A stretch of 64,000 nucleotides of DNA. Origin: Planctomycetaceae bacterium. GTDB lineage: Bacteria; Planctomycetota; Phycisphaerae; Phycisphaerales; SM1A02. Positions 50,114-64,000 of the stretch are shown piece by piece (within the stretch, counting starts at the first letter, position 1; every line of letters starts with the position of its first letter). The position numbers and the translations under genes were made by a program. The stretch spans positions 1 through 64,000 of the forward strand of contig CANLMX010000008.1 of the NCBI GenBank assembly GCA_947492385.1. Direction: 5' to 3'. A model generated the notes under the pieces. That model did no database searches, was not told where the DNA came from, and saw nothing but the letters and a program-made list of their open reading frames with translations.

Positions 50114-51423
50114 ACGAACCATTCCATGTCCCCGGCCTCACGCGCCGTGACTTCGTCGCCGCAGGCACCGCAGTCGGCATCGCGCTCGCCGCTGCGCCGC
50201 GCGCCTCGGCCGCGCAGGATGCTTCGAAGCCGCCCCTCAAGGTCGCGCTCATTGGTTGCGGTGGCCGCGGCACGGGCGCCGCCGACCAGGCGCTGCGGGC
50301 GGATCCAGGCGTCATCCTGTGGGCCGTGGCCGACGTCTTCCCGGACCGGATGGACGCGTGCCTCGCGCAGTTCGCATCGCACGAGGCGAAGGATCGCGTC
50401 CAGGTCCCCGCGGAACGTCGCTTCGCCGGGTTCGACGGCTACAAGGCGGCAATCGCCTCGGGCGTCGATGTGGTGCTCCTCTGCAGCGCACCGCACTTCC
50501 GCCCCATGCACCTTGCCGAGGCCGTCGCTGCGGGCAAGCACATCTTCTGCGAGAAGCCGATGTTCGTCGATGCGCCGGGCTATCGCAGCGTGCTCGAGAG
50601 CGTGAAGGGCGCGCGCGCGAAGAAGCTGAACCTGGTGTCCGGCTTCTGCTGGCGCCGAAGCAATCCCGAACGCGCCACCTTCGCCGAGCTCGAGAAGGGC
50701 ACGCTGGGCACGCCGATGGCGATGTATTCGTGCTACTACACGGGGCCGCTCGGCACCAATGCGCGCAAGCCGGGCTGGAGCGACATGGAGTTCCAGGTCC
50801 GCAACTGGCAGCACTTCACGTGGCTCTCGGGCGATCAGATCGTCGAGCAGGCGGTGCATTCGATCGACAAGATCAACTGGTGCTTCCGCAACGAGCCCCC
50901 GAAGAGCGCCGTCGGCATGGGCGGTCGCCAGCTGCGCGAGGCCATTCCCGAGCGCGGCGACGTGTACGACCACTTCGCGATCGTCTACGAGTGGGCCGAC
51001 GGCCGGCGCGCGTTCCTCAACTGCCGCCAGCAGCCCGACTGCTACTTCGAGAACACCGACTGGATCGCGGGCACCAAGGGCCAGTGCTTCATCAACGGGT
51101 GGGGCCCGACGCACTGGATGAAGGACCCCGCAGGCAAGGTGATCTGGCGCTATCCCACCAACGGGCCGAAGAACAACATGTACCAGGAGGAGCACGACGA
51201 GCTCTTCCGCGCCATCCGGGCAGGGCAGGTGATCGACGACGGCGACTGGATGGCGACGAGCTGCATGATGGCGGTGCTCGGCCGCATGGCCGCCTACAGC
51301 GGGCAGCAGGTGACGTGGGAGCAGGCGATCGCTTCCACCGAATCGCTGGCGCCGGCGAAGTACGAGATGGGCGAACTTCCGATGCCAGGCGAGAAGAAGC
51401 CGGGCCAGTACAAGGTGGGGTGA
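50110..51423 (+). CDS. Tat-exported Gfo/Idh/MocA family oxidoreductase (first copy)
   Basis: This 437-residue NAD(P)-dependent dehydrogenase-fold protein has a twin-arginine signal, LTRRDFVAAGTAVGIALAA. The Rossmann fold is VALIGCGGRGTGAADQAL, followed by AVADVFPDRMDAC, VDVVLLCSAPHFRPMHLAEA, and AGKHIFCEKPMFVD (the conserved EKP). A C-terminal substrate domain has QHFTWLSGDQIVEQAVHSID. Planctomycetes carry many such exported proteins, whose substrates are probably sugars and unknown here. The ATG overlaps the upstream stop by four bases (ATGA) and the second copy follows after three bases. The two copies are recognisably related, sharing NW-x-HFTWLSGD/NWLYHTWLSGD and VGMGGRQ/TGGRQ. Confidence 0.9.
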   Translation: MNEPFHVPGLTRRDFVAAGTAVGIALAAAPRASAAQDASKPPLKVALIGCGGRGTGAADQALRADPGVILWAVADVFPDRMDACLAQFASHEAKDRVQVPAERRFAGFDGYKAAIASGVDVVLLCSAPHFRPMHLAEAVAAGKHIFCEKPMFVDAPGYRSVLESVKGARAKKLNLVSGFCWRRSNPERATFAELEKGTLGTPMAMYSCYYTGPLGTNARKPGWSDMEFQVRNWQHFTWLSGDQIVEQAVHSIDKINWCFRNEPPKSAVGMGGRQLREAIPERGDVYDHFAIVYEWADGRRAFLNCRQQPDCYFENTDWIAGTKGQCFINGWGPTHWMKDPAGKVIWRYPTNGPKNNMYQEEHDELFRAIRAGQVIDDGDWMATSCMMAVLGRMAAYSGQQVTWEQAIASTESLAPAKYEMGELPMPGEKKPGQYKVG

Positions 51424-51426
51424 ACC

Positions 51427-52752
51427 ATGGGCGAACGCAACCGTCGTGACTTCCTGGCCGCATCGGCGCTCGTGGTTCCGACCATCCTCGCCGCACGCTG
51501 CGCCACGGCACGCGCTCCTTCGGACCTCGCCCCGCGCCAGGCCTCCGAATCCCGCGGGCGCCCGTTGCGCGTGGGCGTCATCGGCTGCGGGGGCCGCGGC
51601 GGCGGCGCGGCGTTCGACGCACTGCGCGCGAGTCCCGACACGCGGCTGGTGGCGCTCGGCGACGTCTTCGGCGACCGTGTGCAGGGCGTCGCGGCGGGGC
51701 TCGCCAAGGAGTTCGGCACGCGCGGCGAGGTTCCCGAATCCGCGCGCTTTTCTGGCTTCGACGCGTATCGCAAGGTGCTGGCCACCGACTGCGACGTGGT
51801 GATCCTGACCACCGCGCCCGGCTTCCGCCCGGCGCACTTCGCGGCCGCCGTGGACGCCGGCAAGCATGTCTTCCTCGAGAAGCCGGTGGCGGTCGACCCA
51901 ACCGGCGTCCGCACCGTGATCGAGGCGAGCCAGCGCGCCGCGGCACGGAAGCTGTGCGTGGTCGCCGGCACGCAGCGCCGGCACGAGCGCTGCTACCTGC
52001 AGGCGATGGCGATGATCCGCGACGGCGCCATCGGCCAGCCCGTGGCCGCGCGCGTGTACTGGAACCAGGGCGGGCTCTGGTCGAAGGAGCCGGATCCGGC
52101 GCGCTCCGACATCGAGAACCAGGTGCGCAACTGGCTGTACCACACGTGGCTCTCCGGCGACCACGTCGTCGAGCAGCACGTCCACAACATCGACGTGATG
52201 AACTGGGCGTTCGATGCGCTCCCCGTGCGCTGCACGGCGACCGGCGGCCGCCAGGTGCGAACGCAGCCGATTTACGGCGCGATCAACGATCACTTTTCGA
52301 TCCACTACGTCTTCGACGGCGGCCCGGCCGGCGAGCGGCTCGGCGCGTCAATGTGCCGCCAGCAGGACGGCACCGACGGTTCGGTGGAGGAGGTGATCAT
52401 CGGAACCGAGGGCACGATGCGGCTCTCGAGCGGCAGCGCTCGCTGCACCGGTCGCGTGAAGTGGGCGTTCGAGGGTCCGAACCCGAATCCCTACGTGCAG
52501 GAGCACGTCGACCTGCAGGAGTCGATCCGTGGTCACGCGCCGTACGTCAACGAGGGGCGCCGCATCGCCGAGAGCACGATGACGGCCATCATGGGCCGTA
52601 TGGCGGCGTACACCGGCAAGGACCTGTCGTGGGACGCCGCGCTCAACGACCCGATGGACCTTGTGCCGAAGGACCCGCGCCCCGGTCCGGGCCCGGTGGA
52701 GCGGGTGGCGATGCCGGGCCAGGAGCCGGCCGCGTCAGCGAAGCCGGCGTGA
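51427..52752 (+). CDS. Tat-exported Gfo/Idh/MocA family oxidoreductase (second copy)
   Basis: This 441-residue paralogue of the gene before it has a Tat signal NRRDFLAASALVVPTILAA, the nucleotide-binding VGVIGCGGRGGGAAFDAL, ALGDVFGDRVQG, AGKHVFLEKPVAVDPTG, and the C-terminal part with NWLYHTWLSGDHVVEQHVHN and MNWAFDALPVRCTATGGRQV. It ends in a Pro/Ala-rich segment (GPVERVAMPGQEPAASAKPA) whose DNA overlaps the 3' end of the convergent apbE gene by 110 bases. The pair may act on the same exported sugar substrate, an inference from tandem arrangement only. Confidence 0.9.
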   Translation: MGERNRRDFLAASALVVPTILAARCATARAPSDLAPRQASESRGRPLRVGVIGCGGRGGGAAFDALRASPDTRLVALGDVFGDRVQGVAAGLAKEFGTRGEVPESARFSGFDAYRKVLATDCDVVILTTAPGFRPAHFAAAVDAGKHVFLEKPVAVDPTGVRTVIEASQRAAARKLCVVAGTQRRHERCYLQAMAMIRDGAIGQPVAARVYWNQGGLWSKEPDPARSDIENQVRNWLYHTWLSGDHVVEQHVHNIDVMNWAFDALPVRCTATGGRQVRTQPIYGAINDHFSIHYVFDGGPAGERLGASMCRQQDGTDGSVEEVIIGTEGTMRLSSGSARCTGRVKWAFEGPNPNPYVQEHVDLQESIRGHAPYVNEGRRIAESTMTAIMGRMAAYTGKDLSWDAALNDPMDLVPKDPRPGPGPVERVAMPGQEPAASAKPA

Positions 52753-53746
52753 CCGCAGGCGCGGGCGCACCTGCGCCTGCGGGTGTTCCGTCTGGCCATG
52801 ACCACGTGGCGGTCCATTCCGGGTGCCCCGCGAGCAGCGCGCGGCCGCGCTCCGGACCCATCACGCACAGCGCCGTCGCCAGCGCGTCGGCCTCGGTGGC
52901 GGTGGGGGCGATCACCATCACCTGGACGCGCGTCGTCACCGGCCAGCCCGTGGTGGGGTCGAGCACGTGGCTCAGGCGTTCGCCGCCGGAGTCGAGGTGC
53001 TGCTCGCGGTCGCCGCTCGTCGTCACGGCCTGGTTGCGCAGGAAGAGCGTCGTGCCGCGGCCGTCGTCCGCGGCGATCACCCACGCACGGCGTCCGGGCG
53101 GCGGATCGCCCGCCAGGACGTCGCCCGACAGGTCGACGAGCGCGCTCCGCACGCCCTCAGCCCGGATCGCGGCCATGGCCGCGTCGGCGCCGATTCCCTG
53201 GCCGATCGCGCCGAAGTCGAGCCGGAGGCCATCGACGGCGGCCGCATAGGTCCGAGCGGATGCATCGAAGCGCACGTGGCGCCACCCGCATCGCGCGAGC
53301 AGGGCGCGTGCTTCGGCCGGGTCGAGCGGCTTCCCCGCCGCCCGTGCGCTGCGCCACGCGGACGTGAGCGCTCCAAGCGTCGCGTCGAACGCCCCGTCGG
53401 TGCGGTCGCTCCATGCAAGCGATGCGGCAATTGCGGTTGCCAGGTTGTCCCCGACCGGGACCCGCTCGCCCGCGCGCATCGGCAGGCGGCGGACCTCGCT
53501 TGCCACCATCCAGTCGCTGAGCGCCTCCTCCACCTCCGCCAACCGTCGGAATGCGGCGACCGCGGCGCGGTCCGCCGTCGACTCATCCGCGCACAGCAGG
53601 ATGCGGCACTCCGCGCCCATCACGATGCGCCGGTACTCGCGCACATCGCAGGCACAGCCCGCAAGCAGGCATGCCGCGACCGCCGGCAGCGCCATGATGC
53701 GTGCGCGCGCCGCTGCGGCCGTATGGCGCGCCGCGGCAGCCCGCAT
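52643..53746 (-). CDS. apbE: FAD:protein FMN transferase, lipoprotein form
   Basis: This 367-residue enzyme attaches FMN covalently to Ser/Thr of target flavoproteins outside the cytoplasm. A lipobox LLAGCAC lies near residue 30. Family motifs are RRIVMGAECRILLCAD, AFRRLAEVEEALSDW, SLAWSDRTDGAFDATLGAL, LRLDFGAIGQGIGAD, ALVDLSGDVLAGDPP and the metal-site RLSHVLDPTTGWPV with TEADALATALCVMG. No obvious substrate flavoprotein is adjacent. The ATG overlaps the stop of the REC-PP2C gene by one base (TGATG), so it looks like the last cistron of the chemosensory operon. An alternative start at 53692 would still include the lipobox. The Pro/Ala tail overlaps the convergent oxidoreductase gene by 110 bases. 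Confidence 0.88.
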   Translation of the reverse strand: MRAAAARHTAAAARARIMALPAVAACLLAGCACDVREYRRIVMGAECRILLCADESTADRAAVAAFRRLAEVEEALSDWMVASEVRRLPMRAGERVPVGDNLATAIAASLAWSDRTDGAFDATLGALTSAWRSARAAGKPLDPAEARALLARCGWRHVRFDASARTYAAAVDGLRLDFGAIGQGIGADAAMAAIRAEGVRSALVDLSGDVLAGDPPPGRRAWVIAADDGRGTTLFLRNQAVTTSGDREQHLDSGGERLSHVLDPTTGWPVTTRVQVMVIAPTATEADALATALCVMGPERGRALLAGHPEWTATWSWPDGTPAGAGAPAPAVTPASLTRPAPGPASPPAPPGPDRGAGPSAQGPSGR

Positions 53747-54921
53747 CACGGGAACATGACCTCGAGCACGCTGACGTCGTCCTCGAAGTCGTCGCGCCCG
53801 CGCCATGCCTGGCTGCGGCGCACGAGCCGCTCGACCGCGCCGTCCGGTCCGCGCGCTTCCTGCGAGACGCCCGCGAGGTACTCCTCGAGCGTCCAGAGCG
53901 TGCCGTCGGCGCGGATCAGCTCGTGGATGCCGTCGCTGTAGACATACAGGCGGGAGCCCGCGGGAAGCGGCACCTCGGCCGATTCGTAGGGCAGCCCCGG
54001 GAATGCGCCGATCATGGGTCCCGACACGGGCTCGTTGCCGCCGAGCTCGCGGTCGGCGCCATCGGGCATGGCCAGGAGCGCCGGCGGGTGCCCGCCGCTG
54101 CCGTAGCGCAGCGTCCGTGCACCGAGGTCGGCCACGCCGTACCACATCGTGAAGAACATCCCGTTGTGCTTGGACATCGGGAAGAGTTCGTTGAGCGACG
54201 TGAGCACCGCTCCCGGGTCGCGCGGGTCGGCGCCGCCGAGCGCGTTCACGTGGAGCGCGTTCATGACGCTCACCGAGAGCAGGGCGGGGCCGACGCCGTG
54301 ACCGCACACGTCGAGCAGGTAGATCGCCAGCCGGTCGTCGTCGAGCCAGTGGTACCCGAACGAGTCGCCGCCGAGGCTGGCCGACGGCACGAACGACCAA
54401 CGGGTGCGCACGCGGCCGTCCATCGGTTCGGGAATGAGGGTGCGGACGTAGGCCGCCGCGCTGTCGAGCTCGGCGCGGAGCGCGTTGAAGGCCTCGTCGC
54501 GCTCCTTCTGGGCGCGGTTGGCGCGCGCGTGGTAGCGGATGCGCGCGACCAGCTCCACGGGGTCGGGGAGCTTCACTAGGTAGTCGTTCGCCCCGCGCGC
54601 GAATGCATCGGCCTTCGTGGCGGGCTCCTCCTTCGCGCTCAGCACGATGAGCGGGGTGCGCGCGAGTTCGGGGTCCCGTCGATAGGCACTGACGAGCTCG
54701 AGGCCGTCGGCGTCGGGCATGACCAGGTCCTGGAGGATGACGTCAGGCTTCACCTCCGCGACCTTGGCCTGCGCCTCGGCGCCCTTGGTGCATGCGACCA
54801 GCTGGATGTCCGGGTGCGGCAGCAGCATGCGACGCACCGCTTCCGCGATGAGCGCCTGGTCGTCGACGATGAGCACGCGCATCGGCGCGTCGGCCGGCAG
54901 GCCTGCGGAAGCGCCGCTCAT
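53746..54921 (-). CDS. Response regulator with PP2C (SpoIIE/RsbU-type) phosphatase output
   Basis: This 391-residue output protein has a receiver domain at residues 14-135: acidic pair D20-D21 in VLIVDDQAL, phospho-acceptor D65 in VILQDLVMPD, then LIVLSAKEE with the conserved Lys. A coiled-coil linker (ANRAQKERDEAFNALRAELD) follows, then a PP2C domain with SASLGGDSFGYHWLDDDR, IYLLDVCGHGVGPALLS, LRYGSGGHPPALL, LYVYSDGIHEL and the terminal DDFEDDVSVLEV. The metal-binding aspartates are present. Such proteins dephosphorylate anti-sigma-factor antagonists in partner-switching. It occupies the position of WspR in Wsp operons but has no GGDEF domain. It overlaps cheB by four bases. Confidence 0.92.
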   Translation of the reverse strand: MSGASAGLPADAPMRVLIVDDQALIAEAVRRMLLPHPDIQLVACTKGAEAQAKVAEVKPDVILQDLVMPDADGLELVSAYRRDPELARTPLIVLSAKEEPATKADAFARGANDYLVKLPDPVELVARIRYHARANRAQKERDEAFNALRAELDSAAAYVRTLIPEPMDGRVRTRWSFVPSASLGGDSFGYHWLDDDRLAIYLLDVCGHGVGPALLSVSVMNALHVNALGGADPRDPGAVLTSLNELFPMSKHNGMFFTMWYGVADLGARTLRYGSGGHPPALLAMPDGADRELGGNEPVSGPMIGAFPGLPYESAEVPLPAGSRLYVYSDGIHELIRADGTLWTLEEYLAGVSQEARGPDGAVERLVRRSQAWRGRDDFEDDVSVLEVMFP

Positions 54922-55994
54922 CGCGCGCCTCCCGTGCGCCGTGCGGCCGCCGCCTGGACGAGCGCCGGACCGATCTCCCGGAGCGGGAGCACCTGCTGCG
55001 CGGCGCCCAGCTGCGACGCCGCGCCCGGCATGCCCCAGACCACGCTGGTCGCCTGGTCCTGCACCACCGTGTGCCAGCCGGCCGATCGCATGGCCAGCAT
55101 GCCTTCGGCGCCGTCCTTGCCCATGCCCGTGAGCAGCACTGCGAACCCGGGTGCGGAACGGCACTGGGCCAGGCTGTGGAAAAGCGCGTTCACGGACGGT
55201 CGGTGGATGGCCGCCGGATCGCCCTCGACGTACTCGAGCGCGCCCTGCGGGGTCAGCACCAACTGCCGCGGCTCACCCGCGATGAGCACCGTGCCCGCCT
55301 CGGGGCGCTCGCCCGCACGTGCGAGACGCACCGGCCGTTCCGTGTGGGATCCGAGCCAGGTGGCCATCCCGGGCAGGAAGTTCGCGTCCATGTGCTGGAC
55401 CACGATGATTGAGAAGGGTGCGGGCGACGGCAGCGCCCCGATCAGCGTGGCAAGCGCCTGCGGTCCTCCGGTGCTTGCGCCGATCGCGAGGATCGGCGCA
55501 GTCCCGGACCGTTCCTGCGCCACCGCCTCCGCGGCACGCGCGACCGGCGAGGGCGTGGGAACCGGTGCAGTCGCCGCGCGAGGCGTCATCACGTCCTCGG
55601 TGCGCATGCGCCGCACTGCGTTCACCTTCTCGACCAGGGCCCTGTCTCCCTGCGCGCCCGTGGGCCCGAGCCTCGGCGTCTCGACCGCGTCGAGCGCCCC
55701 CGCGCCGATCGCGTCGTAGACGCGCGACGCATTGCCTTCGACCGTCGCGGTGACCACCACGATCGGGCAGGGCGCCTCGGCCATGACGCGGCGCGTGCAT
55801 TCCACGCCGTCCATCACGGGCATGATGAGGTCCATGAGCACCAGGTCGGGCCGATCCGCCTTCGCGCGCTGGAGCGCCTCGAGCCCGTCGTTCGCGGTCC
55901 ACGCGAGGCTCGTGCCGGGAATCGACAGCACCACGCGACGCAGCGCTTCGCGGGCCATGGCGAGGTCATTGACGATGGCGACTCGGAATCCCAT
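54918..55994 (-). CDS. CheB/WspF-type receptor methylesterase
   Basis: This 358-residue receptor methylesterase/glutamine amidohydrolase resets receptor sensitivity. The receiver domain has D55 in LVLMDLIMPVMDG. After a linker (about 110-165) the catalytic domain shows a complete Ser-His-Asp set: S174 in IGASTGGPQA, H201 in VVQHMDANFLPGM and D294 in LLTGMGKDGAEGM. WGMPGAA near the C-terminus is also typical. In Wsp systems this position is WspF, loss of which locks the pathway on. It starts 28 bases after cheA, the only sizeable gap in the operon, and overlaps the next gene by ATGA. Confidence 0.94.
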   Translation of the reverse strand: MGFRVAIVNDLAMAREALRRVVLSIPGTSLAWTANDGLEALQRAKADRPDLVLMDLIMPVMDGVECTRRVMAEAPCPIVVVTATVEGNASRVYDAIGAGALDAVETPRLGPTGAQGDRALVEKVNAVRRMRTEDVMTPRAATAPVPTPSPVARAAEAVAQERSGTAPILAIGASTGGPQALATLIGALPSPAPFSIIVVQHMDANFLPGMATWLGSHTERPVRLARAGERPEAGTVLIAGEPRQLVLTPQGALEYVEGDPAAIHRPSVNALFHSLAQCRSAPGFAVLLTGMGKDGAEGMLAMRSAGWHTVVQDQATSVVWGMPGAASQLGAAQQVLPLREIGPALVQAAAARRTGGAR

Positions 55995-56022
55995 GGTTCG
56001 GTCCGTGGAGGGTACGCGCCGC

Positions 56023-58311
56023 TCAGGGCGCGCCGACCAGCCCCGTGATCGTGGCCACGAAGCTCTGGTCCTGGAAACTGCCCTTCGTGAGGTAGGCGTT
56101 CGCGCCCGCGTCGAGTCCCGCCCGGCGGTCCTCCTCGCGGTCCTTGTAGCTGACCACCGCGATCGGCAGGTGCGCGAAGCGCGCGTCCGCGCGGACGAGC
56201 CGCACCAGCTCGATGCCGTTCATGCGAGGCATGTCGATATCCGTCACGAGCATGTCGAAGCGCCCGGCGCGCAGCTGGTTCCAGGCGTCCATGCCGTCGA
56301 CCGCCACGGCGACCTCGTAGCCGAGCCGCACCAGCAGCTGGCGCTCGACCTCGCGCACGGTGATCGAGTCCTCGGCCACCAGGATGCGCTTCGTGGCGCG
56401 CGCCGCCGACGCCGTGCGCTCGGACTGCCCGAGCCCGCGGAAGGTCCCCTCCGCGAGCGTCTTGCGGAGCGTGGCCAGCGTGTCGTCGACATCGACCACC
56501 AGCACCGGGTTGCCGTCGTCCAGGATCGCGGCGCTGGCGACGTGCGGCACCTTGCCGAGCCGTGGGTCGAGCGTCCGGACCACCAGGTCCTGCTCTCCGA
56601 GGAACCGCGAGACCACCACGCCCACGCGGCCCGACTCGTCTCCGAGCACCACGACGCTGGCCGCACCCTCGACGCCCGACTTCCCGAGTGCGAGCAGCGC
56701 CGCGCCATCGATGAGCCCGGTGGCGTGCCCGTCCACGTCGCACTGAAGCCGGCCCTGGACGGATCCGATGGCCCCCGGCTCGACGCGCATCACGCGATCG
56801 ATCCGGGAGAGCGGGAAGGCGAACGGCTCGCCGGCGACCTCGACCAGCGCCGCGCGCACCACGCTCAGCGTCACGGGCAGCTGCATCGCGAACGTCGTCC
56901 CCGCGCCCGGCCGGCTCTCGACGCGCACGGTGCCTCCGGTGGAGGTCACCATCTGGTGCACCACGTCGAGCCCGACACCCCGGCCCGAGATCTCGGTCAC
57001 CTTGCTCGCGGTGCTGAAGCCGGGCAGGAACAGGAAGTCGAAGAGCTCGCGCTCGCCCAGCTGGGCCGCAAGCTCGGGCGACTGCATGCCGCGCTCGACG
57101 ACCTTGCGGCGGATCGACTCGGGGTCGATGCCGCGCCCGTCGTCGGTCACGCGCACCTGGAGGTGCCCTGCATGGTGACGCGCCTCGAGCATGACGCGCG
57201 CCTGCTCGGGCTTCCCGCGCGACCGCCGCTCCTCGGGCGCCTCGATCCCGTGGTCGAGGGCATTCCGGATGATGTGGTTGAGCGGTGCCTCGAGCTTCGC
57301 GAGGATGTCGCGGTCGACCGGGACCTCGCCGCCCGCGATGTCGAAGCGCACCTGCTTGCCGAGCTGGCGGGCGACGTCACGCACCATCCGCGGGAATCCC
57401 GAGACTCCCTCGGAGAACGGGCGCATGCGGCTGCCGATCACCTCGTGGTAGAGCGCGGTGGACACTTCTTCGGTGCGCCGGAAGAACGCCTCGAGTTCCA
57501 AGAGGCGCGCGGAGAGCGCGGTTTCCGCCCGCGCCACCGCGTCGCGCGCCTGCACGATGCGTGCGGAGTCACCGCGGCGGAGGGCGCCCTCGAGCGATTC
57601 GCGTGCTGCGCTGAGATCGGATCGCACCGCGGCGAGCGAGCGCCTGAGTGCGGGAGATCGCCGGCCCTCGACCATCGACTCGCCCGCGAGCTGCATCATG
57701 CGGTCGAGGTTGTCGGCGTTCACCCGCACCGCACGCGTCTCGACGACGGGCGCGGCGCTTGCGGCAGGCTCGGCCGCCGGCATCGGGCGCTGCACGACGG
57801 CGTCAACCGTTCGGGCGGGTTCGGCAACTCGCGCCGGGACGTCGATCACGGGCGCGGGCTCGACGACGGGCGCCTGCGCGGGTGCAGGCGCAGGGGCGGC
57901 TGCGGGCGCGTCCGGCACCGGGGCCGCCAGCGCGGTGGTCAGTGCGTTCACCTCGCCCGCGTGCTCAGCGGACCACGCGGCGATCCCGGCCTCGGGGACC
58001 TGTGCGATCCGAGCCAGGAAGTCGGTGCCTTCGAGCAGCTGGTCGATGCGGGTGCGCGCCGTGCGCTCCTGGCCCTTCTGGATGCGGACGAACACGTCCT
58101 CCATGTGGTGGGCCACGGCGACCGCGGCATCGATGCCCACGATCCGGGCCGCGCCCTTCACCGAGTGGGCGGCTCGCATCAATGCCTGGATCGGCGAAAC
58201 GTCCGCCGGGTCGCGCTCCAGCACCAGTAGGCCCTCGGAGAGGGCGGCGCAGTGCGTCTCGACCTCGGCCTTGAACAGCTCGTGCATCGAGAATCCACCG
58301 AGGTCGGTCAT
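56023..58311 (-). CDS. Hybrid chemotaxis-type histidine kinase CheA-REC (WspE-like)
   Basis: This 762-residue kinase has an N-terminal HPt domain with phospho-H49 in RAAHSVKGAARIVG and an Ala/Pro linker (about 120-190) without an evident P2 CheY-binding domain. A dimerisation helix with AVRVNADNLDRMMQLAGE follows. The HATPase domain has NHIIRNALDHGIEAPEER, VTDDGRGIDPESIR and ISGRGVGLDVVHQMV. A CheW-like domain follows, then a C-terminal receiver domain with VTDIDMPRMNGIELVR. This domain order matches WspE of Pseudomonas. It starts with a four-base ATGA overlap on the second cheW. Confidence 0.94.
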   Translation of the reverse strand: MTDLGGFSMHELFKAEVETHCAALSEGLLVLERDPADVSPIQALMRAAHSVKGAARIVGIDAAVAVAHHMEDVFVRIQKGQERTARTRIDQLLEGTDFLARIAQVPEAGIAAWSAEHAGEVNALTTALAAPVPDAPAAAPAPAPAQAPVVEPAPVIDVPARVAEPARTVDAVVQRPMPAAEPAASAAPVVETRAVRVNADNLDRMMQLAGESMVEGRRSPALRRSLAAVRSDLSAARESLEGALRRGDSARIVQARDAVARAETALSARLLELEAFFRRTEEVSTALYHEVIGSRMRPFSEGVSGFPRMVRDVARQLGKQVRFDIAGGEVPVDRDILAKLEAPLNHIIRNALDHGIEAPEERRSRGKPEQARVMLEARHHAGHLQVRVTDDGRGIDPESIRRKVVERGMQSPELAAQLGERELFDFLFLPGFSTASKVTEISGRGVGLDVVHQMVTSTGGTVRVESRPGAGTTFAMQLPVTLSVVRAALVEVAGEPFAFPLSRIDRVMRVEPGAIGSVQGRLQCDVDGHATGLIDGAALLALGKSGVEGAASVVVLGDESGRVGVVVSRFLGEQDLVVRTLDPRLGKVPHVASAAILDDGNPVLVVDVDDTLATLRKTLAEGTFRGLGQSERTASAARATKRILVAEDSITVREVERQLLVRLGYEVAVAVDGMDAWNQLRAGRFDMLVTDIDMPRMNGIELVRLVRADARFAHLPIAVVSYKDREEDRRAGLDAGANAYLTKGSFQDQSFVATITGLVGAP

Positions 58312-58910
58312 CCCATCGCCCCCCGGAAGATCGAGGCGAGCCCGTGGACATCGATGAGCGCGGCCTCGCCCGACTCGGTCTGCGCAAGCCGCGCGACGCA
58401 CCCGTTGCGCGACGCCGTCACGGTGACCGGGGCCTCGCGCGAGGCGCCCTCGGCGACGTCGAGCACGCCGACCACCTCGTCCACTTCGAAGGCCCACCGG
58501 TCACGCACGTCACCGATCACGGCGAGCGCGGGCTTCGCGCGCGCCTCCGAGCGGGCAATCCCGAGCGCGGCCTCCAGCGACATACAAAGCAGCAGTTCGC
58601 CGTCATGGTTCGCGATGCCGAGGAGCACCTCGTTCGACCGGTGCGGCACGCGGTGCACCCGTGCGGGCGGCACCACCTTCGCGACGTCCACCGACGGGAT
58701 CGCGAACAGCTCGCCGCCCACGCGGACCGCCAGCACGCTCATGGCGCGACGTGCACGGGCCGCGATCGGCGCCGCAAGCTCTCCGGTGGCGCGGTCGAGG
58801 TCGGCCTCCGCGAGCGGGCGTGCCAGGAGCTCGTCAAGCCCCGCATCGGCACGCGCGAGCGCACCCGCACCGCGGTCCGGCGCCGCGTCGTTTCGCGCAG
58901 GCTGGCTCAT
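58308..58910 (-). CDS. CheW-like adaptor (WspD position)
   Basis: This 200-residue adaptor would couple the receptor array to the kinase. About 60 N-terminal residues are Ala/Arg/Asp-rich and probably disordered. The CheW fold follows: MSVLAVRVGGELFAIPSVDV, KVVPPARVHRVPHRSNEVLL, GIANHDGELLLCMSLEAALG and RWAFEVDEVVGVLDV. Two different CheW proteins flanking CheR is the Wsp arrangement, where WspB and WspD have distinct roles. Start and stop codons both overlap neighbours by four bases (with cheR and cheA). Confidence 0.9.
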   Translation of the reverse strand: MSQPARNDAAPDRGAGALARADAGLDELLARPLAEADLDRATGELAAPIAARARRAMSVLAVRVGGELFAIPSVDVAKVVPPARVHRVPHRSNEVLLGIANHDGELLLCMSLEAALGIARSEARAKPALAVIGDVRDRWAFEVDEVVGVLDVAEGASREAPVTVTASRNGCVARLAQTESGEAALIDVHGLASIFRGAMG

Positions 58911-60130
58911 CCGGTGCTCCTTGCCGCGCGCATGCGGTACCGGGTTGCCAATCCGTGATCGCCTCGCGCCTCGGCCAGCAGCGCCAGCTGGACCAGCGCC
59001 TCGGGATGCGAAGGTGCGAGGTAGACGGCCTGGCGCAGCCATGCCTCCGCCTCGGCCGGGCGTCCCAACGCGGCCTCGACCGTGCCGAGCAGGTGGAACA
59101 GCTCGACCGACCGTTCGCCCGCCGCGTGCATCGCGATCGCGGACGCGCGCGCATCCTCCAGCCTCCCCGCGTCCGCGGCAGCCCGTGCATCGCCGAGGGT
59201 CGCGCGCGCCGGCGGCATGGGCGTGCGCTGGGCACCGGACGGCGTCGACGGGACGGGTGCCCGTGCCGCAGCCGTGCGGTCTCGTCGCGCGCCGGGGAGG
59301 ATGGCCGCACGGTGTTCGGGTTCCGCACGCGGCGCGGCCGCGCGCATCACGGGAGCGCGCGCCCACGCGAACGCGCCGTGCGACTGCTCGCATGCGGGCG
59401 CGAAGCGATCTCCGAGCCCAAATGCCGCCGGTCGTTCGGCATGCCCCACGAACAGGAGCCCGTCCTCGGCGAGCACGCGGTCGAGCTCTCTCCCGATCGC
59501 GGCGCGCGCGTCCGCGGAGAGGTAGATCGCGAGGTTCCTGCAGAACACGGCGTCGCTCGAACCGGTTGGGAACGCCGCGGTCGCGCCCGGGGCGGAGCCT
59601 TGGTGGAGGTGCACGCAGCGCCGAACGTCCTCGCCGACCGTCACGCCGTCTTCGTCCACGCGGAACATGTCGCTCGCCCACCCCGGGATCCCGCCGCGCA
59701 CGGCCATCCGCCCGAGCCGGCCGGTGGATGCCCGGGCGATCGCCTCGGGGTTCGGGTCGACGGCATCCACGCGCACGCGCTCGGCCGGGAGGCCCGCGGC
59801 CAGGGCCGTCGCGGCGATGGAGAACGGCTCGGCACCCGTCGCGCATGCCACCGAGAGCGCGCGGAATCCGGCGCGTCCCGCGATCCGCGTGCGAAGCAGT
59901 TCGAACGCCGCGGGGTAGCGGAACAGCCAGGTCTCCGGGACCGCGATCCGCTCGCGGAGCCGCGCGAGCTCGTCCGGGTCGCGCTCGAGCCGCACTGCGT
60001 ATGCATCGAGGTCACCGCCGACCTCGCGCCGGCGCTCGTCGACGATGCCCGCGATCGCATCCTCGCGCGCGAGCGACGGGTCGATCTGCGCCCGCGTCAG
60101 CAGGTCGGAGATGCGCGCGAGCGCCCTCAC
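58907..60130 (-). CDS. CheR-type receptor methyltransferase with C-terminal TPR region (WspC-like)
   Basis: This 407-residue enzyme is expected to methylate glutamates of the adjacent receptor. The CheR N-terminal helical part includes DAYAVRLERDPDELARLRER and ETWLFRYPAAFELLR. The SAM-binding core has LSVACATGAEPFSIAATAL, VDAVDPNPEAIARA, and AVFCRNLAIYLSADARAAI. After an Ala/Arg/Pro linker, a TPR-like segment follows (EDARASAIAMHAAGERSVEL, then HLLGTVEAALGRPAEAEAWL, then AVYLAPSHPEALVQLALLAE). CheR-TPR fusions are characteristic of WspC and of Frz-type systems. The GTG at 60130 overlaps the cheW stop as GTGA. Confidence 0.92.
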   Translation of the reverse strand: MRALARISDLLTRAQIDPSLAREDAIAGIVDERRREVGGDLDAYAVRLERDPDELARLRERIAVPETWLFRYPAAFELLRTRIAGRAGFRALSVACATGAEPFSIAATALAAGLPAERVRVDAVDPNPEAIARASTGRLGRMAVRGGIPGWASDMFRVDEDGVTVGEDVRRCVHLHQGSAPGATAAFPTGSSDAVFCRNLAIYLSADARAAIGRELDRVLAEDGLLFVGHAERPAAFGLGDRFAPACEQSHGAFAWARAPVMRAAAPRAEPEHRAAILPGARRDRTAAARAPVPSTPSGAQRTPMPPARATLGDARAAADAGRLEDARASAIAMHAAGERSVELFHLLGTVEAALGRPAEAEAWLRQAVYLAPSHPEALVQLALLAEARGDHGLATRYRMRAARSTG

Positions 60131-60600
60131 GGCAGCGCCTTCCCGGGAGCGTGCACGGCCACCGGCGCCGCGAGCTGCCGGTGCGCCTCGGCGAGCGACG
60201 CGGGCTCGAACCGCTGCACGGCGTGGCCCGCATGCTGCACGACCGACCCGAGCCACGCGACGGTCCCCGCTCCGGCGCGCCAGGCGCCGTCGTCGTCGAG
60301 CGTCGCGGCGTCGAGCACCCGGTCCACCGCGAGCGCGAAGCGTGCGCGTGGTCCCGTGCCGATGCCCGTGTCGAGCAGCATCACCCGCGCACCGAGCGTC
60401 GGCCGCACGGAACCGGAGCCGCGCATCAGCGCCACGGCGTCGACCATCGGGACGAACTCGCCGTGCACGTCGATGACGCCCGCGAGCCAGGGCGGTGCGC
60501 CCGGCACGTGACGCGCCCGCACCAACGGATGCACGGCCTCGACGCACGCGGCGTCGACTGCGTATCGCGCTCCGTCGGCGATGAACACGAAGGCGCGCAC
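60127..60600 (-). CDS. CheW-like adaptor (WspB position)
   Basis: This 157-residue CheW-fold protein has almost no N-terminal extension: VRAFVFIADGARYAVDAACV, EAVHPLVRARHVPGAPPWLA, GVIDVHGEFVPMVDAVALM, RVMLLDTGIG and ARFALAVDRVLDAATL. The GTG at 60600 is chosen because the fold begins immediately and it lies seven bases after the receptor stop; an upstream ATG at 60681 would be inside the receptor gene. No clear Shine-Dalgarno is seen, so coupling to receptor translation is likely. Confidence 0.88.
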   Translation of the reverse strand: MRAFVFIADGARYAVDAACVEAVHPLVRARHVPGAPPWLAGVIDVHGEFVPMVDAVALMRGSGSVRPTLGARVMLLDTGIGTGPRARFALAVDRVLDAATLDDDGAWRAGAGTVAWLGSVVQHAGHAVQRFEPASLAEAHRQLAAPVAVHAPGKALP

Positions 60601-60607
60601 GTGGTGG

Positions 60608-62662
60608 TCAGCCGCGGAGGTGGAAGGCCGCGATCGCGGACTTGAGCATGCCGATCGCGCGCTGCAGGTCCTCGGCCGCACGCCCGAACTCGCGCACCGC
60701 CTCGCCGGTCGCCTTGGCGTTCGACGTGAGCGTGGTCATCGCGTCGGAGATCTGTGCCGCGCCCGACGCCTGGCTCTGCATTCCCTCGCGCACGGTGCCG
60801 AAGCTGCGCGAGGTCTCGGCGACGCTTCCGATGATCTCGTTCATGCTGCGTCCGATCGTGCGTACGTCGGTGACGTTCCGGCGAACCTGCTCGCTGAATC
60901 GGTCCATCTCCATGACGCCGCTCGAGACCGCTCCCTGCATCTCCTTCACCATGCGTTCGATGTCGAGCGTGGCCTGGCCGGTCTGGTCGGCGAGCCGCCG
61001 GATCTCGCGGGCCACCACCAGGAACCCGCGCCCGTATTCCCCGGCCTTCTCGGCCTCGATCGCGGCATTCACCGAGAGCAGGTTCGTCTGTTCGGCGACC
61101 TTGGTGATCGTGGTGACGACGCCGCCGATGTTTACGGCCTTCTCGTTGATCGCGGCCAACCGGTCTGCCACGCCCGCGGTCGCGGTGTCGAGTGACTGCA
61201 TGGCGCCCTCCATTGACTCGAGCTGCACGCGCCCGTCCTGCGCCAGCCGCGTGGTGGACGTGGCCACGTCGTTGACGTGGTCCATCTCGCGGGCCAGTTC
61301 CTGGCCGGTCGCGGTGATCTGCCGGACGGCCGCGGCGATCTGCGTGGTGCTGGCGCCGAAGCTGGCGGCGACCTCCTCCTGGCGCCGCGAGGTGGTGGCG
61401 AGCTCCGTGCTGGTGGTGCTCAGCTGCACGCCCGCCGAGCGGACCTGCCCGACCAGCGAGTTGAGGTCGTCGGTCATCGAGTCGAGCGCCCGCAGCAGGT
61501 CACCGGTCTCGTCCGGGCAGTCCGAGCGGATCGGGGCCCGGGTCAGGTCGCCGGCCGCCACCTGCTGCGCCGCGCTCGCCGCGATGTCGATGCGCGCCAC
61601 CAGGCGCCGCGACGGTACCCACAGGAGCACCGCCATCACGCCGGTTCCCAGCGCAGCGAAGCCGAGCGTCGTTGCGATGTCGGCCGTGATGGGGCCCGTC
61701 ACGGTGGAACGCGGCACGCTCATCACCAACGTCCACTTCCCGGTCGCGACGCGGGCCACCGCGAAGTACGACATGCCACCCGCGCCGGGATCTTCCTGTT
61801 CTTCGGCGAAACCGGATTCGGACAACTGGATGTAGCGTCGGAACACGCTGGCCATCGGCGTCTTGTCCACTGACATCATGCGCCATTCGTTGGGGTCGTT
61901 CGCATACTGCCGCCCCGTTCCGTCGGACGCGACGACCACGTTCCCTTCGCTCGTCACGAGGAAGATGTCGACGTCGTCCAGTTCCGCCCGCTTGTCGACC
62001 TCGGCCTGGAGGTCCGCCAAGGCATGGTCGCAGCAAACCGTGCCCTTGAACTCGCCGTCGATGATGATGGGCCAGCAGTACGAGACCATCACCTTGCCTT
62101 CGTAGTCGTAGGGCTGGGTCACCAGTCGCTCGATCACCTTGCGCTGCCGCCAGTTGCGCTCGGGAGTGACGTAGTACTCCTGGTCTTCCATGCCGGTCAG
62201 CGGCTTGGGGCGGATGGCGTCACCCTTGGTCCAGTCGCGGAACCAGTACACGAGGAAGCGCCCGTCGGGGCCGATCCCGTTCTCGGGGACCATGGTCGCG
62301 TCGTTGCCGTCGGCGTTGGGTTCGTAGCCGGAGCACAACCCCGTGAACTGAGGCGATGCCTCGAGCAGCGCGCGCATCGCATCGGACGCCATCTGCCGCC
62401 TCCCGAACATCGCCGTCTGGGCCAATGCGAGCGACTTCGCGGACTCCATCCCCGACGCATTCATCGTCTCGACCCACCCCGCGAGCCCTTCGGCCCGCAG
62501 CGCGAGCTGCTCCTTCGCGTTGTCCACCATCAGGTGGTACTTGCGCAAAGCGTTCGTTCCCACCAGCGCCAGGAGCACCAGCGTCGCCGGAACGATTGTG
62601 GCCAGCACCATGCGTGCGAGCAGGCCTTGCGTGAACGTCCGCGTCCGGGGTCCGCTGGTCAT
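60608..62662 (-). CDS. Methyl-accepting chemotaxis-type receptor (WspA-like), dCache sensor
   Basis: This 684-residue membrane receptor has a transmembrane segment at about 16-38, an extracytoplasmic double-Cache-like sensor to about residue 330, including YWFRDWTKGDAIRPKPLTGM and VMVSYCWPIIIDGEFKGTVC, a second membrane segment, and a HAMP region. The signalling coiled coil has the hairpin tip VAEQTNLLSVNAAIEAEKAG, then GRGFLVVAREIRRLADQTGQ and ATLDIERMVKEMQGAVSSG. This tip and the following helix closely follow the WspA pattern. It is the first gene of the operon. The ATG at 62662 has TATCCT six bases upstream, defining a leaderless-type promoter. Confidence 0.94.
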   Translation of the reverse strand: MTSGPRTRTFTQGLLARMVLATIVPATLVLLALVGTNALRKYHLMVDNAKEQLALRAEGLAGWVETMNASGMESAKSLALAQTAMFGRRQMASDAMRALLEASPQFTGLCSGYEPNADGNDATMVPENGIGPDGRFLVYWFRDWTKGDAIRPKPLTGMEDQEYYVTPERNWRQRKVIERLVTQPYDYEGKVMVSYCWPIIIDGEFKGTVCCDHALADLQAEVDKRAELDDVDIFLVTSEGNVVVASDGTGRQYANDPNEWRMMSVDKTPMASVFRRYIQLSESGFAEEQEDPGAGGMSYFAVARVATGKWTLVMSVPRSTVTGPITADIATTLGFAALGTGVMAVLLWVPSRRLVARIDIAASAAQQVAAGDLTRAPIRSDCPDETGDLLRALDSMTDDLNSLVGQVRSAGVQLSTTSTELATTSRRQEEVAASFGASTTQIAAAVRQITATGQELAREMDHVNDVATSTTRLAQDGRVQLESMEGAMQSLDTATAGVADRLAAINEKAVNIGGVVTTITKVAEQTNLLSVNAAIEAEKAGEYGRGFLVVAREIRRLADQTGQATLDIERMVKEMQGAVSSGVMEMDRFSEQVRRNVTDVRTIGRSMNEIIGSVAETSRSFGTVREGMQSQASGAAQISDAMTTLTSNAKATGEAVREFGRAAEDLQRAIGMLKSAIAAFHLRG

Positions 62663-62709: not shown

Positions 62710-64000
62710 TCAGTCGCCGGCGTGCGCGGTCCGCACCGTGCGCATCGCCTCGAGCTGCGCGAACAGGATGTCGACGAGTTCCGGGTCGAACTGGCGCCCG
62801 CGCTCGGCCTGGATGAACTCGAGCGCCTGCTCCTCGCTCCACGCCTCCTTGTAGGCGCGGCGGCTGGTCAGCGCGTCGAAGACGTCCGCGATGCACACGA
62901 TGCGGGCGAAGAGCGGGATGTCCTCGGCCCGCTTGCCTCCCGACTTCGGCAGGCCGGTCGCGGGATCGATCAACGGGCGCCCGTCGAGGTCAACGTAGCC
63001 CGGGTAGCCGCCGCCGTCCCAGCGCTCGTGGTGGTTCAGGACCACCTCCCGGGCCGTCTCGTCGAACTGGGTGGGGCTGTCCGCGAAGAGCCGGGCGCCG
63101 ATCACCGTGTGCTGTTGCATCTGGCGCATCTCGTCGGGGTCGAGCCGGCCAGGCTTCTTGAGGATGGCGTCGCTGATCCCGATCTTTCCGACGTCGTGCA
63201 GCTTCGCCGCGATGCGCAGCCGGTCGCGCTGGCGCTCGAAGCCCGCGCCCTCGAACCCTCGGCGGCGCGCCCACTCGTCGAACACGACGCACGAGTAGCC
63301 GGCGACGCGCTCGATGTGCGGTCCGGTCTCGGCCGGATCGCGCACCTCGGCCATGCGGATCATGCGCAGGATCACGCTCTCGGTGAGCTGGGCGCGCTCG
63401 ATGACCACGGTCGCCATGGAGGCGAAGTGCTCGACCAGCCGTTCGTCCTCGCGCGTGAAGCGCCCGGGAGCGCCGTCGGGGGTGCCCGGCGCGTTCAGCA
63501 GCTGGAGCACCCCCAGCACCACGTCCGCCGCGTTGCGCAGCGGAACGGTGATCACCGAGCGCGTGCGGTAGCCCGTCACCGCGTCATAGCTTCGGTCGAA
63601 CGCGTAGGGCGCCGACGGGTCGATCGTGTAGGCGTCGACCACGTTGACGATCTCGCCGCTCATGGCCGACCAGCCCGCGATCGAGCGCGCGCTCACCGGC
63701 ACTACCAGGCTGGAGAATCGGGTCGTCGAGTGCCTGCCCGGCTGCTCGAGCGTGTCGTTCTGGCTGAACGCGAAGCGCAGCGCGTCGCCCTCGCGCGTGT
63801 AGATGGTGCCGGCGTCGGCGCCGCACAGCGCGCGTGCCTCGGTGAGGATCCGCTCCATGAGGAGGTGGAAGTCGTGGATGCGGCTCAGCTCCACGCCCAG
63901 GCGCGTGAGCGAGTCGACGCGCGCCTGCCAGCCGAGCAGGTGATCGGCGCCTGGCACCTCGCTGGCCGCCACGCGCCGCGCCTCCTCGGCATCGCGCACC
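62710..64000 (-). CDS. GAF-HD-GYP domain protein, probable cyclic-di-GMP phosphodiesterase (5' end at or beyond window edge)
   Basis: At least 429 residues are visible. A GAF domain (about 30-190) includes RILTEARALCGADAGTIYT, SVITVPLRNAADVVLGVLQL and EHFASMATVVIERAQL. The C-terminal HD-GYP domain has IAAKLHDVGKIGISDAILKK (HD pair), MQQHTVIGARLFAD, NHHERWDGGGYPG (the HHE and GYP motifs), and IVCIADVFDALTSRRAYKEA. These metal-binding residues are complete, so hydrolysis of cyclic di-GMP or a related dinucleotide is likely. A GTG at 63999 could be the start, but the frame is open to the edge. It is on the same strand, immediately upstream of the Wsp-like operon. Confidence 0.9.
   Translation of the reverse strand, partial: VRDAEEARRVAASEVPGADHLLGWQARVDSLTRLGVELSRIHDFHLLMERILTEARALCGADAGTIYTREGDALRFAFSQNDTLEQPGRHSTTRFSSLVVPVSARSIAGWSAMSGEIVNVVDAYTIDPSAPYAFDRSYDAVTGYRTRSVITVPLRNAADVVLGVLQLLNAPGTPDGAPGRFTREDERLVEHFASMATVVIERAQLTESVILRMIRMAEVRDPAETGPHIERVAGYSCVVFDEWARRRGFEGAGFERQRDRLRIAAKLHDVGKIGISDAILKKPGRLDPDEMRQMQQHTVIGARLFADSPTQFDETAREVVLNHHERWDGGGYPGYVDLDGRPLIDPATGLPKSGGKRAEDIPLFARIVCIADVFDALTSRRAYKEAWSEEQALEFIQAERGRQFDPELVDILFAQLEAMRTVRTAHAGD

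Follow-up and report, generated by a model that had tools for sequence, protein, structure and literature searches.

A Wsp-class chemosensory operon of a planctomycete with a PP2C phosphatase in place of the GGDEF domain of WspR and a likely partner-switch output

Introduction

The Wsp system of Pseudomonas (WspABCDEF-WspR) is a chemosensory array, of a type with which bacteria sense surfaces, that ends in WspR, a response regulator with a GGDEF output domain. It belongs to the ACF class of chemosensory systems, a classification reportedly due to Wuichet and Zhulin in 2010. Here we describe a related operon (52643-62662, minus strand) in a 64,000-nucleotide stretch of DNA from Planctomycetaceae bacterium, positions 1-64,000 of the 74,137-base contig CANLMX010000008.1 (C8 below); the whole of this stretch is called the window. 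The operon shares the gene order of Wsp, and the protein in the WspR position, REC-PP2C, is a WspR-type receiver fused to a SpoIIE/RsbU-type PP2C phosphatase. An earlier note on this DNA had proposed that its output runs through dephosphorylation of an anti-sigma antagonist rather than through cyclic di-GMP synthesis.

This idea is partly in print. A 2012 survey of ACF clusters with CheR-TPR, the same cluster class as that described here, already reports receivers fused to, among other domains, family-2C Ser/Thr phosphatases; the survey, in the part available to us, gives domain counts and does not identify a WspR receiver on PP2C or STAS partners (PMC3447774). In Shewanella oneidensis, Che1 with CrsR-CrsA, like the F7 “stage 1” clusters, is a chemosensory cluster encoded with a partner switch (PMC9855816, PMC7184735). 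From what is accessible of these reports, that system differs from ours in being of the F7 class, with a separate CheY and with an anti-sigma domain in CrsR itself, whereas in our operon the WspR receiver itself carries the phosphatase. The receiver-helix-PP2C layout is shared with HsbR and CrsR (PMC6482189) and with RssB of P. aeruginosa (PDB 3f7a). HsbR, which the earlier note had cited as a plain REC-PP2C protein, is described as carrying, like CrsR, an additional kinase/anti-sigma domain that is absent here (PMC6482189), and the receiver of RssB lies outside the WspR-type group. Wsp genes have been reported by name in planctomycetes, as far as the available text of these papers goes (PMC6461901, PMC9119077). 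In the part of the open-access literature that we consulted, we found no description of a WspR receiver on a PP2C or of the heptad rule presented below, and the accessible parts of a Leptospira study and of a Geobacter study gave no precedent.

Results

Sequence comparison indicates that the response regulator of the operon (53746..54921, minus strand) is the receiver and coiled-coil of WspR placed on a PP2C. In the PDB, WspR matches it best, from P. aeruginosa (3bre, 4.1e-44) and then from P. syringae (3i5a, 4.5e-41), in both cases across the receiver and the first part of the linker. Next comes RssB, itself of the REC-PP2C type, aligned over most of the protein at 2.5e-27; further matches confined to the receiver lie near 3e-17 (PleD, 3e-17). 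In a tree of 53 receivers picked by hand, two of which (L177_11169 and L073_17070) carry wrong labels and are not Wsp proteins, a 97/97 branch has the receivers of REC-PP2C, WspR and REC-HD-GYP proteins and of one REC-histidine-kinase (L060) on one side and those of CheA, CheB, RssB, another REC-GGDEF and other REC-PP2C proteins on the other, without resolving the branching order of the output types within the group. Because of these best matches and this clade, we assign the receiver to WspR. Pfam, by which the gene domains were assigned, finds a receiver (77 bits) and a SpoIIE domain (133 bits) in the protein and nothing else: neither the GGDEF output expected in the WspR position nor a kinase/anti-sigma domain. 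D20, D21, D65 and K117, which we take to be the active-site residues of the receiver, and D186, D204, D330, D381 and D382, presumably the active-site and metal-binding residues of the PP2C, do not vary among the 19 orthologues that were aligned. The earlier description of this position, a receiver plus PP2C with its metal aspartates and no GGDEF, thus holds. In an AlphaFold2 model (mean predicted local distance difference test score 89.9), a single helix of residues 121-162 (54436..54561, minus strand) is predicted to link receiver and PP2C; among the structural matches of the model P. aeruginosa RssB is the best, and WspR stands at rank 7.

The connecting helix follows a length rule. We measured the linker from the KLP-type motif at the receiver end to the A..Y motif at the PP2C start; 105 frames were collected, 6 duplicates were left out, 7 that the pattern missed were read separately (two by eye), and 99 were counted. 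These 99 distinct proteins fall into exactly two length classes one heptad apart, 74 with a distance of 46 and 25 with 39; the protein of the window has the short, 39-residue form. An independent distance, from KLP to GGD in the 92 proteins caught by the pattern, is likewise bimodal (67/68 in 24 and 74/75 in 55); the remaining proteins gave single values of 76 and 77, two misreadings of the pattern and, in nine cases, no match. On a tree of the 92, by a quick method, a switch from one length to the other is required 7 times, and supported branches force at least 6 of these switches. Six WspR-type GGDEF proteins, one of them counted by eye, have a distance of 53 from KLP to DxLT, and the sequence of their helix continues from the receiver as in REC-PP2C. 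Rec-GGDEF cyclases are reported to obey the same heptad rule with another output, their linkers growing in steps of seven that are explained by a register switch of the coiled-coil, and WspR is placed in linker length group 4 (PMC8041772, accessible text). For RsbU-type phosphatases, control through dimeric coiled-coil linkers has been proposed, with receivers among the parts of an exchangeable toolkit (PMC12143880, accessible text). On the simplest reading, the coiled-coil of WspR has acquired a PP2C, which would work by the same kind of switch.

The rest of the operon also has the Wsp layout. In the order receptor, CheW, CheR-TPR, CheW, CheA-REC, CheB, REC-PP2C and ApbE, its genes show 4-base overlaps at four junctions and a 1-base overlap between REC-PP2C and ApbE; overlapping genes are expected to form a single operon, and this one is real and tightly coupled. 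The methyl-accepting receptor (60608..62662), in the WspA length class, combines a dCache-like sensor (29 bits, below the cut-off), HAMP and an MCP signalling domain (112 bits). It is followed by a CheW in the WspB position (60127..60600; 51 bits), a CheR methyltransferase (58907..60130; 80 bits) with a C-terminal TPR in the WspC position, and a CheW with an N-terminal extension in the WspD position (58308..58910; 67 bits). The TPR matches of CheR are weak and below the gathering cut-offs. The hybrid CheA-REC kinase in the WspE position (56023..58311) has Hpt, HATPase, CheW and REC domains, and the CheB methylesterase in the WspF position (54918..55994), a REC plus methylesterase, exceeds the NCBIfam PRK12555 cut-off (405 versus 342 bits). 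All lie on the minus strand, and the order WspA-B-C-D-E-F-R claimed by the earlier note stands for all seven genes with Pfam support for every domain, as do the CheR-TPR and CheA-REC fusions.

Several lines place this system, at the level of sequence, in the Wsp (ACF) class. The extracted CheA set was pruned by hand of 25 rows that were redundant or fragments, and in the tree of the remaining 65 a group of 50 with 100/99 support holds 43 CheAs of PP2C operons (that of the window included), 6 of GGDEF-type Wsp operons and one of L060; the remaining 15 rows, which include the CheA of E. coli, lie outside it. The GGDEF-type references are five plasmid-borne operons (L085-L089) and L177, not Pseudomonas WspE, and their gene set and order are the same as here, according to annotation and to domain maps of 5. 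The receptor hairpin aligns with WspA-type receptors at 43-48% identity and, compared with the E. coli receptor, has two symmetrical 14-residue insertions, four heptads more, as in the WspA-type references. WspA-like receptors are reported as 40H and most others in the same genome as 36H (PMC5907407, in the part seen). Their sensor domains differ: the three plasmid-borne WspA-type receptors scanned all have 4HB, whereas that of the window is dCache-like. The window also combines CheR-TPR with a multidomain response regulator, a combination by which the 2012 survey, in its available part, recognises ACF clusters (PMC3447774). The class assignment rests on the CheA tree, the hairpin length, the gene order and, above all, the receiver, and neither of the comparisons by which the earlier note proposed to judge it, of CheA and of the receptor, refuted it.

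The REC-PP2C operon is not confined to this genome. Some match at 1e-30 was found in 69 of 392 genomes of the phylum, many of these matches covering a single domain, and a full-length match at 2.5e-81 or better in 20, our own included; cheA and cheB adjoin REC-PP2C in 18 of the 20, L084 and L056 being the exceptions. Of 31 genomes sampled from the window's family, 10 have a full-length copy (1e-100 or better), and all 10 copies sit in the operon or in its remainder at contig ends. From a scan of named genome contigs, which matched at least 589 relatives, the best 80 were kept as loci. Since these were found with a REC-PP2C query, they give no measure of the frequency of PP2C against GGDEF or of their relative age; the locus counts that follow rest on six-frame searches. 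The best 80 are mostly from Planctomycetota, with records from Desulfoferrobacter suflitae, Sulfidibacter corallicola, Ignavibacteria, Verrucomicrobia, Lentisphaerae, Elusimicrobia, Methylococcus and others. In 62 of them the stretch retrieved includes cheA, cheB or both, and contig ends truncate some of the remaining 18. L060 has, at 9257-10849, a Wsp-type operon whose WspR position is taken by a WspR-receiver-HisKA-HATPase-REC protein, another output on the same receiver.

We next consider where the signal may go. Our preferred reading, to which we assign a probability of about 0.66, is that a Wsp-class array acts on a regulator that keeps the WspR receiver and coiled-coil, and that the PP2C replacing GGDEF feeds a partner switch through a STAS protein. 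A partner-switch output appears likely because genes for RsbW-like HATPases and STAS proteins lie near orthologues in other organisms. Of the 80 loci, 8 (L119, L124, L125, L143, L144, L157, L171 and L172) have a HATPase_c_2 (RsbW-like) gene no more than 3 kb from REC-PP2C, and four of these also have STAS; in L119, from the named strain Desulfoferrobacter suflitae, the operon, HATPase and STAS lie side by side. In three further loci, L114, L152 and L168, such a gene stands at the head of the operon, immediately ahead of the gene for the receptor or the first CheW, and L114 has STAS close by as well. In L084, an orphan planctomycete orthologue, STAS and HATPase adjoin directly. Those neighbour proteins that were checked were confirmed by Pfam. 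Genomes of the family hold 50 stand-alone HATPase_c_2 proteins of at least 70 bits in about 100.6 Mb; at that density the 0.55 Mb around the 80 genes would contain about 0.3, a figure to be read with the caveat that the family taxa differ from the 80 loci and that PP2C genes in general may adjoin such genes.

Several observations weigh against a partner switch. No such neighbour was found in 69 of the 80 loci (68 had no match and L121 only a receiver-HATPase fusion), and in the stretches read from the 31-genome sample neither STAS nor HATPase lies beside the operon in any of the 10 full-length family copies. They leave some room for a PP2C substrate other than STAS, for example a target of a Ser/Thr kinase, and hence for no partner switch at all, an alternative that we regard as improbable: the folds nearest to that of REC-PP2C belong to PP2Cs from partner switches and from regulators of stress (P. 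aeruginosa RssB, Rv1364c RsbU-RsbW, SiaA and SpoIIE), and the diagnostic neighbours of orthologues, where present, are STAS and HATPase. In planctomycetes, where the earlier note had suggested looking for the operon and such partners together, the operon thus recurs, and partners adjoin the orthologue of L084. The fusion in L121 (8365-10956) is a large receiver-HATPase_c_2 protein encoded a few kb downstream of REC-PP2C.

In line with the earlier note, which had seen no anti-sigma partner in the window, neither STAS nor a stand-alone HATPase_c_2 was found on contig C8; both occur elsewhere in the genome. The recovered genome (2.07 Mb) is 69% complete, so partners may be missing from it, which also counts against the partner switch. 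Its STAS proteins above the cut-off number five (on C38, C5, C40, C15 and C24), and its one clear stand-alone HATPase_c_2 forms a pair with the STAS of contig C38. In the near-complete genomes G295 and G376, which both have the operon, the corresponding pair holds the sole stand-alone HATPase_c_2. The C38 pair is thus the leading candidate partner by elimination, not by linkage, because such pairs also occur in family members without the REC-PP2C system; this lack of specificity is a further point on the negative side. A single STAS on contig C5, the own-genome match (38% identity) to the STAS of the orphan orthologue, was considered as a specific partner and rejected: G295, which is of the same genus and has the system, and other listed family genomes have no match to it at 1e-12, and a matching HATPase query found nothing in our genome.

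With PP2C in place of an enzyme that makes cyclic di-GMP, the system probably passes its signal on along another path than Wsp does. The partner-switch part of the earlier proposal gains from the STAS and HATPase genes beside orthologues elsewhere; its “rather than cyclic di-GMP” was too strong in view of HD-GYP genes with WspR-type receivers, which speak against our preferred reading in that cyclic di-GMP may still be an output. One is a REC-GAF-HD-GYP gene of the cyclic di-GMP phosphodiesterase type (62710..64000, minus strand, cut by the window end; whole gene C8:62710-64434), which lies upstream on the same strand, ends 47 bases from the receptor gene and was missed by the earlier note. 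Its HD-GYP motifs are intact, and its receiver is without one paired acidic residue (TSD versus VDD in others); the receiver of the corresponding gene in G360 is even more degenerate. A second WspR-receiver-GAF-HD-GYP protein, with an intact receiver, is encoded away from the operon on contig C34 (L065:5415-7196) and may serve the CheA of the operon as a second, distant output.

The phosphatase path might itself end in cyclic di-GMP, by a detour to the Wsp output in which the STAS protein controls a diguanylate cyclase or an HD-GYP phosphodiesterase. In P. aeruginosa, STAS-type control of a cyclic di-GMP enzyme is known from SiaABC-SiaD and HsbA-HsbD. HsbA, when phosphorylated, is reported to bind the cyclase HsbD (PMC6482189), and WspR of Lysobacter to bind the HD-GYP protein RpfG (PMC9758175), each according to the part of the source available; the HD-GYP gene at the head of the operon and its C34 counterpart with an intact receiver fit such a path. 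The recovered genome encodes only two GGDEF proteins, neither of which has a WspR receiver, and no STAS match lies on their contigs. We consider this detour unlikely, while cyclic di-GMP as such is probably not out of the picture.

A canonical Wsp system with its true WspR-GGDEF elsewhere, and REC-PP2C as a side branch, is a far more doubtful alternative. The genome is incomplete, and L177 has a GGDEF-type Wsp operon beside a divergent REC-PP2C gene. Against it, no WspR-receiver-GGDEF protein was found in the recovered genome or in near-complete G295 and G376, in line with the earlier note: at E<=1e-25 the WspR-type receivers of our genome (G000) and G295 are only those of REC-PP2C and HD-GYP proteins, and those of G376 only REC-PP2C. 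The receiver of our organism's own REC-GGDEF lies outside the WspR group. On contig C4, a REC-GGDEF with such an outside receiver adjoins a stand-alone Hpt-like protein (L022:5136-6375).

Other neighbours can be noted briefly. The interval given by the earlier note does contain the operon; it also takes in, without mention, an ApbE-type FAD:protein FMN transferase gene (52643..53746, minus strand) that overlaps the REC-PP2C stop by one base. ApbE also follows REC-PP2C in several relatives (L066, L268, L069, L103-L105) and is absent there in most, so its place as a component of the system is uncertain; with the HD-GYP gene, it is an addition relative to the Wsp system of Pseudomonas. Two tandem plus-strand genes convergent with the operon (50126-52752) look by eye like exported Gfo/Idh-type oxidoreductases. 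Past the window on C8, about 6 kb upstream of the receptor gene and on the opposite strand, lies a type IV pilus/type II secretion cluster (L017:8434-12713) with two T2SSE ATPases and one T2SSF protein by Pfam and pilin-like genes judged by eye. Scans of the window for tRNA and Rfam families gave no matches.

Discussion

Based on these comparisons, we propose a plausible mechanism for signalling by this operon. The dCache-like receptor, together with CheW, would control autophosphorylation of CheA, with sensitivity set by CheR-TPR and CheB, and CheA would then phosphorylate the WspR-type receiver. The receiver dimer could then alter the packing of the connecting coiled-coil, and this change may switch on the PP2C dimer, activation being the direction that we assume. 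The active PP2C would dephosphorylate a STAS protein, which might then change its partner and so free, or capture, an RsbW-like HATPase and its target, a sigma factor or another protein. This scheme keeps much of the Wsp system of Pseudomonas, namely its gene order, CheR-TPR and CheA-REC fusions, receptor hairpin length, CheA clade, receiver and linker, and it exchanges the GGDEF output for PP2C.

A wider idea, which we hold to be evenly poised between right and wrong, is that the WspR receiver and coiled-coil form an exchangeable socket. A multi-phylum Wsp subfamily would plug a PP2C into this socket, so that one coiled-coil switch, set off by phosphorylation, would drive synthesis of cyclic di-GMP in Pseudomonas and a partner switch of the sigma-factor type elsewhere; HD-GYP and histidine kinase, both of which are seen in this receiver clade, would be other plugs, and the organism of the window may use PP2C and HD-GYP at once.

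If our reading is true, Wsp-type arrays and RsbU-type partner switches would have been joined by one domain exchange at a defined joint, and the mechanism common to both could be put to a direct test through the one-heptad rule of the linker. For planctomycetes, where operons have been named biofilm or cyclic di-GMP “Wsp” systems from their gene names, as in the available text of PMC6461901, the output so assigned may be wrong.

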